Source: Armatimonadota bacterium
GTDB taxonomy: Bacteria; Armatimonadota; UBA5829; DTJY01
Direction of reading: 5' to 3'
Assembly (NCBI GenBank): GCA_023511795.1
Contig: JAIMAU010000002.1
Coordinates: 1 to 64,000 of the forward strand
Length of the DNA: 64,000 bases
Part shown: positions 1 to 32,405 of the stretch, one piece after another
Position numbering within the stretch: position 1 is the first letter of the stretch
Layout of the letters: each line of letters begins with the position of its first letter
Made by a program: the position numbers and the translations under genes
The notes under the pieces: generated by a model
What the model saw: the letters and a program-made list of their open reading frames with translations, nothing else
Database searches by the model: none
What the model was told of the DNA's origin: nothing

Positions 1-731
<731 letters not shown>

Positions 732-769
732 AGGTCGATCTCACCTGATGCTTCGCTTGCACTATTCAG

Positions 770-798
770 TTGTCAGGGAAAAGTGAGTCTGGTATAAT
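770..798 (+). promoter_or_regulatory. Sigma-70-type promoter inside the 16S-23S spacer
   Basis: TTGTCA (770-775), a 17-base spacer and a perfect TATAAT (793-798) form a near-consensus housekeeping promoter reading toward the tRNAs and 23S. A perfect 6-bp palindrome, ATGACG-CTTA-CGTCAT (801-816), starts where transcription would begin. Internal rRNA operon promoters are uncommon. The rest of the spacer up to 969 holds one more hairpin (GGGGAAG at 869-875 with CTTCCCC at 884-890) and no gene. Confidence 0.5.
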
Positions 799-969
799 AC
801 ATGACGCTTACGTCATATAAAACTTAAACTGGAAATTAAGACAGACTATCGCTCCTTGACATTTTTTAGGGGAAGGCGAGAGTCTTCCCCGTTGTTGTGT
901 CTCGAAAAGAGCTTGGGTAAAACATTTATTTCCATTGCAAATTCACTTTTGCAATGGAGAGAATGGAAT

Positions 970-1046
<77 letters not shown>

Positions 1047-1116
1047 GAAGCCAGGCGAAAATGAAAGGCGCGGGAAAGAGCAAACCGCCAATTATCTTTG
1101 ACTTTCGACTGAACTA

Positions 1117-1192
1117 GGGGGCTTAGCTCAGTTGGGAGAGCGATTGCTTTGCACGCAATAGGTCAGCGGTTCGAGCCCGCTAGCCTCCACCA
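1117..1192 (+). tRNA. alaT: tRNA-Ala (TGC)
   Basis: The acceptor GGGGGCT pairs with AGCCTCC, the D-arm is standard, anticodon TGC is at 1150-1152 within an ATTGC/GCAAT stem, the T-arm carries GGTTCGAGCCC, and CCA is encoded (1190-1192). It is the second tRNA of the rRNA spacer. Confidence 0.98.
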
Positions 1193-1338
1193 CCAAGTCG
1201 CTGGATAAATATACTAGCGGCGGCGAGACACAAGAAAAAGTTTTTCCCGGACGCCAGCATAGCACTGGCGTCCCATCGGAGGTTGCAAAGCTTGGCAGGT
1301 CGAAGCATTGCCAAGGTAGCCTCCGATGATGTTGGGAG

Positions 1339-1362
1339 CGCACATTGAAAACCGCATAGAGT
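1339..1362 (+). repeat. 23S processing stem, 5' arm
   Basis: These 24 bases are the exact reverse complement of 4424-4447, on the other side of the 23S gene. Pairing of the arms would bring the ends of pre-23S together in the kind of long duplex that RNase III cuts. The pairing is read directly from the sequence; the processing role follows from how bacterial rRNA operons work. Confidence 0.85.
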
Positions 1363-1393
1363 AACGGGTGAATGTGACATCTAGCGCTTTTTT

Positions 1394-4382
<2,989 letters not shown>

Positions 4383-4423
4383 ACTAATTTGCTCTCAGCT
4401 TTTCGCTGAGTAGCTTTGCCCAA

Positions 4424-4447
4424 ACTCTATGCGGTTTTCAATGTGCG
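4424..4447 (+). repeat. 23S processing stem, 3' arm
   Basis: Exact reverse complement of 1339-1362. It lies between a small hairpin (CTCAGC/GCTGAG, about 4393-4409) after 23S and the 5S gene. Confidence 0.85.
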
Positions 4448-4469
4448 GTCTTGCACTGTCTTAAGTTTT

Positions 4470-4585
4470 GCTGGTGACCATGCCGGAGGGGGTACACCCG
4501 TTCCCATCCCGAACACGGTAGTTAAGCCCTCCAGGGCCGACGGTACTTCCGGGGCAACCCGGCGGAAGAATAGGTCGTCGCCAGC
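4470..4585 (+). rRNA. rrf: 5S ribosomal RNA
   Basis: A 116-base gene with the terminal helix GCTGGTGA/TCGCCAGC, the conserved GTTCCCATCCCGAACACG stretch and GTTAAGCCC of loop B/C. It closes the 16S-Ile-Ala-23S-5S operon. Confidence 0.96.
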
Positions 4586-4593
4586 TTATAAAT

Positions 4594-31597: not shown

Positions 31598-32206
31598 CTA
31601 TTTGGTAAGCGTACTGAGGGACCCTTTACTAAACCGACCGCCGAGCACAACACCGGACGCAATGACCGCTTTAAGGAAGTCAATTCCGATAAAAGGTGCT
31701 ACCCCTAGCTGCCAGGCGCCCAGGATACAGGCGCTAGTATTCTCACCTTGAAAGAATGCCAGCCAAGCAGCGAGCCAGCTGGCGCCGAATAAATAGATTA
31801 CAATAATCCCAAGGCATCCTGCTAGCACGGCTGAGGCATTGGACCGCGATTTGAGTTTTTCGAATACCATTCCAGAGACATAGGCGCCGACCGCGAATCC
31901 GATTAAATATCCGCCAGTGGGCCCTGCGAAGGCTGCCAGGCCAAAATTTCCACATGAAAATACCGGCATCCCAAGCAAGCCCATTATAAGGTATTGGATT
32001 TGACTCAATGCGCCGAGCCGACTGCCAAGTGCGAGACCGGAAAGGATTACTGCAAATACTTGAAGTGTGACAGGCACTGGCGTATACCACAAGCGGAAGG
32101 ATATGTTAGCACATATTGCCGTAACGCCTGCAAAAAACAAAGAGGCAAGAAAATGGATGCCTGTAACTGGGAATACACGTGCTGCTTCTCTGGAATAGTT
32201 TGCCAT
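31598..32206 (-). CDS. bioY: Biotin transporter substrate-binding subunit BioY
   Basis: A 202-residue, six-helix S-component of an ECF-type vitamin transporter. The FGLAAFAGPTGGYLIGFAVGAYVSG segment (about 85-110) is the BioY signature, and the C-terminal PFIGIDFLKAVIASGV is typical. It may work alone or share the ECF ATPase/T module, none of which is in the window. AGGGAGG precedes the ATG. It has its own promoter (32245-32273) directly downstream of an intrinsic terminator that ends a separate RNA on the same strand. Confidence 0.93.
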   Translation of the reverse strand: MANYSREAARVFPVTGIHFLASLFFAGVTAICANISFRLWYTPVPVTLQVFAVILSGLALGSRLGALSQIQYLIMGLLGMPVFSCGNFGLAAFAGPTGGYLIGFAVGAYVSGMVFEKLKSRSNASAVLAGCLGIIVIYLFGASWLAAWLAFFQGENTSACILGAWQLGVAPFIGIDFLKAVIASGVVLGGRFSKGSLSTLTK

Positions 32207-32244: not shown

Positions 32245-32273
32245 ATGATAACGGTTGGTTCAAGATGTGTCAA
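32245..32273 (-). promoter_or_regulatory. Promoter of bioY
   Basis: On the minus strand TTGACA (32273-32268), a 17-base spacer and TATCAT (32250-32245). The -35 overlaps the tail of the terminator before it, so bioY should be transcribed independently of the upstream RNA. Confidence 0.65.
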
Positions 32274-32274
32274 A

Positions 32275-32378
32275 TAAAAAAGCCCGTTGCTATGGAGCAA
32301 ACGGGCTCCCGTGCCACGAGCCTAGCCACCCCGGGCACGGCAAAAGTGAAAGGAAGGGGAAAGTTGTTCTTTCCCAAG
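32275..32378 (-). ncRNA. Putative small RNA of about 104 bases upstream of bioY
   Basis: Read on the minus strand, three consecutive hairpins follow the predicted start: GGGAAAG/CTTTCCC (32375-32357), CCGTGCC/GGCACGG (32340-32309), and AGCCCGTT/AACGGGCT (32307-32281) followed by six T. The last is a textbook intrinsic terminator. A consensus sigma-54 promoter sits at the right distance upstream. There is no open frame of note. It may be a regulatory RNA; the alternative is an attenuated long leader of bioY. Confidence 0.55.
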
Positions 32379-32388
32379 CAAAAATACC

Positions 32389-32405
32389 TGCAAGAATCGT
32401 GCCAA
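32389..32405 (-). promoter_or_regulatory. Sigma-54 (RpoN) type promoter
   Basis: On the minus strand the sequence is TTGGCACG-N4-TTGCA, an exact match to the -24/-12 consensus, with GG at 32403-32402 and GC at 32391-32390. Predicted transcription starts near 32378 and runs into the three-hairpin RNA. The ten core bases would be expected by chance about 0.1 times on both strands of a random window this long. No enhancer-binding activator or rpoN is in the window. The rest of the 32207-32582 gap shows nothing else. Confidence 0.55.

Follow-up and report, generated by a model that had tools for sequence, protein, structure and literature searches.

A family of predicted sigma-54-dependent small RNAs that shares its promoter with PEP-CTERM genes in a class of Armatimonadota

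The window analyzed here, a 64-kb stretch of an Armatimonadota genome, carries on its minus strand, just upstream of bioY, one copy of what is probably a class-wide family of sigma-54-dependent, trans-acting small RNAs (sRNAs) of the PEP-CTERM/exosortase regulon, which would prevent some of the surface proteins, a subset independent of sigma-54, from being translated, probably with Hfq. This reading starts from features present in the sequence itself: a promoter, a terminator, a family of siblings, a promoter held in common with the regulon, and complementarity to gene starts. Transcription, pairing, repression and the role of Hfq we infer, as follows. The sRNAs and a number of PEP-CTERM surface-protein genes would both be transcribed by RpoN together with an NtrC-type activator, as their shared promoters suggest. 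Each sRNA would start just ahead of a pyrimidine-rich core, typically CAUCUUUUUCUCCUUCC, and end at an intrinsic terminator; the core would pair with the Shine-Dalgarno (SD) sequence, spacer and AUG of target mRNAs and thereby block translation, with Hfq probably assisting the pairing. The best exact core matches would mark as targets the starts of PEP-CTERM genes that lack a sigma-54 box.

On the minus strand, positions 32405 to 32389 read TTGGCACG-ATTC-TTGCA, a predicted sigma-54 (-24/-12) promoter (TTGGCACGATTCTTGCA, 32389..32405) with GG at -24, GC at -12 and N10 between them, in a genome that encodes rpoN; the same box is found at sRNA siblings and before PEP-CTERM genes. The window holds a single exact match to TGGCACG-N4-TTGC, and only this match is informative, because with up to two mismatches 29 matches are found where 20.3 are expected. 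A distance of 12 nt from the -12 C (32390) places the predicted RNA start at about 32378 and the terminator sets its end, giving a predicted sRNA of about 104 nt (32275..32378, minus strand). The 111 nt from 32380 to 32270 fold at -46.6 kcal/mol (z -3.65), a stability that 0 of 200 shuffles equalled. Three hairpins are predicted, at about 32375-32357, 32340-32309 and 32308-32280, followed by U residues to 32276. The first (32357..32375, GGGAAAG-AACAA-CUUUCCC) has a perfect 7-bp stem; the second (32309..32340) includes GGCTAGGC, which in alignment A4 is common to the bioY-linked copy of G003; the third, with the U run, forms the intrinsic terminator (32276..32308). The unit is conserved in a genome of the same genus (G001, 99% identity over the region) and in one of another genus (G003, 73% identity over query positions 76 to 210, which run from the -24 box to about 32271, a little beyond the terminator), and a three-way alignment concentrates the conservation in the promoter and the RNA.

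Beyond the terminator, a housekeeping-type promoter on the same strand, TTGACA-N17-TATCAT (32245..32273; TTGACA at 32273-32268, TATCAT at 32250-32245), precedes bioY, a biotin-uptake gene of the BioY family (31598..32206, minus strand; PF02632, 125.2 bits, E 2.3e-36). The conserved unit of G003 also lies upstream of a BioY-like ORF and is followed, after its terminator, by the similar TTGACA-N18-TATGAT. An earlier note on this DNA had correctly described the exact -24/-12 box, the start near 32378, the three hairpins, the terminator and the separate bioY promoter. Its proposal that the sigma-54 sRNA is self-contained and distinct from bioY has good support at the level of sequence in the conserved promoter, the terminator, the siblings and the tandem arrays described below. 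Among the grounds it had named on which that proposal would fall were absence of rpoN and poor conservation in relatives; the window genome has two copies of rpoN, and relatives keep both the -24/-12 box and the hairpins.

The first search also returned further boxes, each followed by a hairpin and CUCCUUCC. A sequence-only model, R1, which was built from 15 sequences and covers the promoter and 5' core without the terminator, matches 21 of the 28 genomes of the class. Across 291 genomes of the phylum, a match spanning model positions 1 to 53 at E<=0.01 occurs only inside the class; elsewhere there are partial matches alone, at E 2.5e-4 or worse. A strict pattern scan of genome contigs gave three named loci, two of them from Armatimonadota/Armatimonadetes. 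We catalogued 42 sigma-54-type units from 21 genomes, a count that leaves aside partial R1 matches (for example G022:C124:19040, positions 1-55, E 0.0053) and the copy at G000:C16:42635, whose promoter is missing near the contig end. A hairpin of -14 kcal/mol or better with a T run follows all 42 units, as against 0 of 23 control boxes before PEP-CTERM genes, and the terminator had played no part in finding the units. Of 15 folded units, 14 have a predicted 5' hairpin, which varies in shape; the exception is G017:C201. Covariation gives weak support, since RNAalifold predicted only the terminator from 13 members (8 pairs, 3 two-sided changes, covariation term -0.08). Neighboring, tandem copies occur in G001, G003, G004, G014, G017 and G022. 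With its own promoter, its own terminator, a common core and several unlinked or tandem copies, the group has the sequence features of a family of trans-acting sibling sRNAs.

Two more copies lie elsewhere in the window genome (G000): a canonical one at G000:C27:19819 and a partial one close to the end of contig C16. Both of these contigs end inside or beside sRNA copies, so a tandem array probably broke the assembly. In two genera, tandem sRNA pairs (L034 in G001:C9 and L037 in G004:C49) are convergent to the same three-gene group, which by eye encodes a 400-aa secreted protein, a zinc-finger anti-sigma-like protein and an ECF-sigma-like protein.

The promoter connects these sRNAs to the exosortase system. 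In five genomes of the GTDB family, TGGCAYRANNNTTGCA occurs 7, 9, 2, 17 and 14 times (49 in total), compared with 0 for the reversed pattern. By reading, 11 of these boxes belong to sRNA units, 18 precede PEP-CTERM ORFs and 20 are other or unclear: a small zinc-ribbon ORF follows 3 of them, secreted or TPR proteins, mostly truncated where the retrieved sequence stops, follow 8, and the last 9 are unclear or were not retrieved, G001:C20:24785 (not retrieved, counted as unclear) among them. PEP-CTERM ends in these counts and in the target counts below were recognized by eye or by our own pattern, the curated model being used for the hits of the window genome alone. That genome has 8 PEP-CTERM hits and an exosortase, and exosortase is found in 24 of the 28 class genomes. 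Exosortase, PEP-CTERM proteins and the same sigma-54 box before PEP-CTERM genes thus occur together, and because this box also precedes the sRNAs, the sRNAs share the promoter class of the exosortase system. The earlier note had expected control of a nitrogen or stress type, for which we found no support; the box lies mainly upstream of PEP-CTERM genes, and a nitrogen regulon was rejected, as the common promoter points to these genes and no link to nitrogen was found. Sigma-54 sites of the -24/-12 type upstream of PEP-CTERM genes have been published in Proteobacteria (PMC1569441), and RpoN dependence was shown experimentally for one PEP-CTERM gene in Aquincola (PMC9850573).

Of the 28 class genomes, 22 encode an rpoN that passes the cut-off, and the sRNA is present in 20 of these 22 compared with 1 of the 6 others (one-sided hypergeometric p ~0.001, for related genomes that are not independent). 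The departures are G012 and G019, which have rpoN and no R1 match, and G011 (69% complete), which has the sRNA and no rpoN found. Four genomes (G002, G010, G013 and G025) are without exosortase and without the sRNA; G021 has an exosortase and neither rpoN nor the sRNA. As activator, PrsR was rejected: the best TIGR02915 score was 433.9 bits where 502.6 are needed, and the best-scoring protein lies in a flagellar cluster. A kinase-activator pair in G001 (L252), about 30 kb from the exosortase gene, is a candidate activator only. Upstream of the sRNA and PEP-CTERM promoters we found A/T tracts and no clear common motif that could serve as a shared activator site.

Several other genes stand near the same machinery or the same box. 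One of the two rpoN genes of the window genome lies with an NtrC-type regulator in a flagellar-looking cluster (L240, G000:C1:563000-582000; flgB-, flgC-, fliE- and fliF-like ORFs, by eye). The small conserved zinc-ribbon ORF behind the same sigma-54 box (L193, G000:C1:641674; L038, G004:C92:10713; L045, G024:C277:430) starts M(I/V)KCFWCGA and is a possible further regulon member. A different family of the phylum has the exact box TGGCACGATTCTTGCA 136 nt ahead of an ORF resembling a cold-shock protein (L074 in G057 and L080 in G225).

Read as its reverse complement, the family core gives an ideal ribosome-binding site (RBS) with its start codon, GGAAGGAG-AAAAAG-AUG. A CAU stands 5-7 nt before CUCC in 29 of the 42 units, compared with a mean of 7.75 and a maximum of 19 in shuffled prefixes, and the exact pattern CATCTTTTN{0,2}CTCCTTC has 36 occurrences, spread over 19 of the 28 class genomes, against 0 for the control. 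Across the fetched loci, the 36 distinct exact core matches divide into 31 terminated sRNA-like units and 5 gene starts on the opposite strand, each with RBS and AUG. Four of these five are PEP-CTERM genes (an orthologous pair in G000 and G001, G007:C41 and G008:C8); the fifth, G020:C119, encodes a secreted protein of 1154 aa that lacks a PEP-CTERM end. When up to one mismatch is allowed (GAAGGAGAAAAAGATG), the site marks the beginning of, or lies within, 18 ORFs of 100 aa or more, and 9 of them are PEP-CTERM ORFs (9 of 14 in rpoN-positive genomes versus 0 of 4 in rpoN-negative ones). No sigma-54-like box was found within 600 nt upstream of eight start sites checked; for G020:C119 the sequence covered was shorter, 125 nt in this check and 400 nt in another. 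Where the bioY-linked sRNA of G003 carries a variant core, CATCTCTTTCTCCTTC, its exact complement is a PEP-CTERM gene start in the same genome; the family would predict such paired changes in core and start site.

A wider comparison used predicted pairing energies. In a non-random sample of 509 genes from the fetched loci, 37 of them PEP-CTERM, duplex energy was -11.7 at PEP-CTERM starts versus -9.2 (p 5.7e-4), in a test from which core-complementarity loci were excluded by list and in which L155, included from the PEP-CTERM search, is itself one of the predicted targets. The spacer-specific part of the duplex was also better for PEP-CTERM starts in this non-random sample (p 2.8e-4). PEP-CTERM genes of the same set have stronger SDs (p 1.1e-7), which by itself raises their complementarity. 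Among 117 genes of the window genome, those for secreted proteins taken together showed no significant advantage as targets (p 0.137). Hfq, which would probably assist the pairing, is encoded in 24 of the 28 class genomes, including that of the window.

The strength of these SDs gives the most serious competing account its footing. According to this account the sRNA is real, driven by sigma-54 and part of the PEP-CTERM regulon, and its core is a general anti-Shine-Dalgarno brake on many mRNAs, with the PEP-CTERM matches reflecting only strong, A-rich RBSs. Other strong starts do score well likewise, and relatives in the RF02278 group of Betaproteobacteria are thought to bind the RBSs of several mRNAs (PMC7011215, PMC11722255). 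We nevertheless consider a general brake unlikely: it does not call for an anti-AUG triplet at a fixed 5-7 nt, for PEP-CTERM genes at four of the five exact gene starts, or for a difference in the spacer-specific part of the complementarity.

Two further accounts concern what the locus is rather than what its core recognizes, and both are less probable still. The window copy could be a bioY leader or attenuator, with transcription from the sigma-54 promoter continuing past the terminator into bioY in certain conditions; bioY does start on the same strand 70 nt beyond the U run (32276 to 32206), and the linkage is retained in two genera. Yet bioY has a housekeeping-type promoter of its own after the terminator in both genera, terminators close all catalogued units, no Rfam family reaches its gathering score at the window locus, and the siblings are not adjacent to bioY in the contexts read: bioY-linked copies number two (G000 and G001 counted as one), and the other siblings with neighbors read sit elsewhere. 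We therefore regard a leader as quite improbable. It is hardly credible that the conserved element instead encodes a small protein on its other strand, translated from an RBS and start codon supplied by the core complement. The complement does read like such a site, but predicted antisense ORFs of the units range from none to 67 aa and have no conserved sequence, on which ground a small antisense ORF was rejected, and the intrinsic terminators lie on the RNA strand. The reading we prefer remains a trans-acting sRNA aimed at a subset of PEP-CTERM starts.

Within that reading, the window copy stands apart. Its core segment, ACAACUUUCCCCUUCC (32352..32367, minus strand), has diverged from the family core ACAUCUUUUUCUCCUUCC in alignment A2, retaining an anti-SD character and losing the anti-AUG CAU; because of this divergence it may act on another set of targets. 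None was found for it. The window copy is thus a diverged, bioY-linked sibling whose function may differ from that of the family.

Some terminated units carry the same core and have no sigma-54 box (for example G000:C4:35338, L151/L244; L144-L149; L153; L263; L264). Core and terminator thus stay together whether or not the promoter is present, an argument for the core as the functional part. One group of boxless units, in family f3, has TGGCACAAAC directly upstream. The f3 units also show TGGCACAA(A)C motifs upstream, often repeated and perhaps accompanied by a -10-like element. We tentatively raise the possibility of a surface-protein switch, in which one sigma-54 signal would activate one exosortase-sorted set of proteins and, by way of sibling sRNAs with a core antisense to SD, spacer and AUG, silence another, sigma-54-independent set, with the boxless units allowing several signals to converge on one start-site code.

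Qrr sRNAs depend on sigma-54 and Hfq. In Vibrio they form a set of siblings with a shared core, activated by the response regulator LuxO (PMC4211561). The family described here is likewise a set of siblings with a shared core, and differs in sequence, phylum and regulon, Qrr serving quorum sensing and the present family surface proteins. No gathering-score Rfam match to Qrr was found in the window, nor any Qrr match in further Rfam searches, and two activators scanned for LuxO both fell far below its cut-off. CJnc230 (FlmE) of Campylobacter jejuni is RpoN-dependent and represses translation at RBSs with an anti-SD motif (PMC11187230); it resembles our family in its anti-SD core and in RpoN-type control, here predicted. 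CJnc230, however, is flagellar and is processed from flgE mRNA, whereas the present sRNAs have their own promoter and terminator, occur in several copies and have a core that spans the AUG as well.

The toxic/double-hairpin sRNAs (RF02278) and anti-hemB RNAs (RF02837) of Betaproteobacteria have a CU-rich UCUCCU core, a terminator and several copies (PMC5688073, PMC11722255, PMC4603805, PMC7011215), as do the present sRNAs; the excerpts of those reports available to us mention no sigma-54 promoter for them. The G017:C201 sibling matches them weakly, at 23.9 bits for RF02278 and 26.6 bits for RF02837 (gathering scores 50 and 49.5). RF02278 membership was rejected on this score, the best obtained, and Rfam searches gave no known element at gathering score, weak matches only. 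The PEP-CTERM/EpsH system has a comparable -24/-12 cis site upstream of PEP-CTERM genes (Haft 2006, PMC1569441); it belongs to Proteobacteria, the accessible part of that paper describes no sRNA, and its PrsR model is not matched here. Our sRNA family would work like Qrr, CJnc230 and the RF02278 RNAs and, by the tests made, is a member of none of them.

Among the open-licence papers listed by our searches, we found no earlier description of a PEP-CTERM-linked or Armatimonadota sRNA. If the proposed function is true, post-transcriptional control enters the exosortase/PEP-CTERM system, which the portions of the literature available to us describe with sigma-54 and two-component control only, and Armatimonadota gain an sRNA family with predicted targets. 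Positions 1-4586, at the beginning of the window, are occupied by rRNA and tRNA genes: a 16S gene represented by its 3' part, two tRNAs, 23S and 5S (Rfam).
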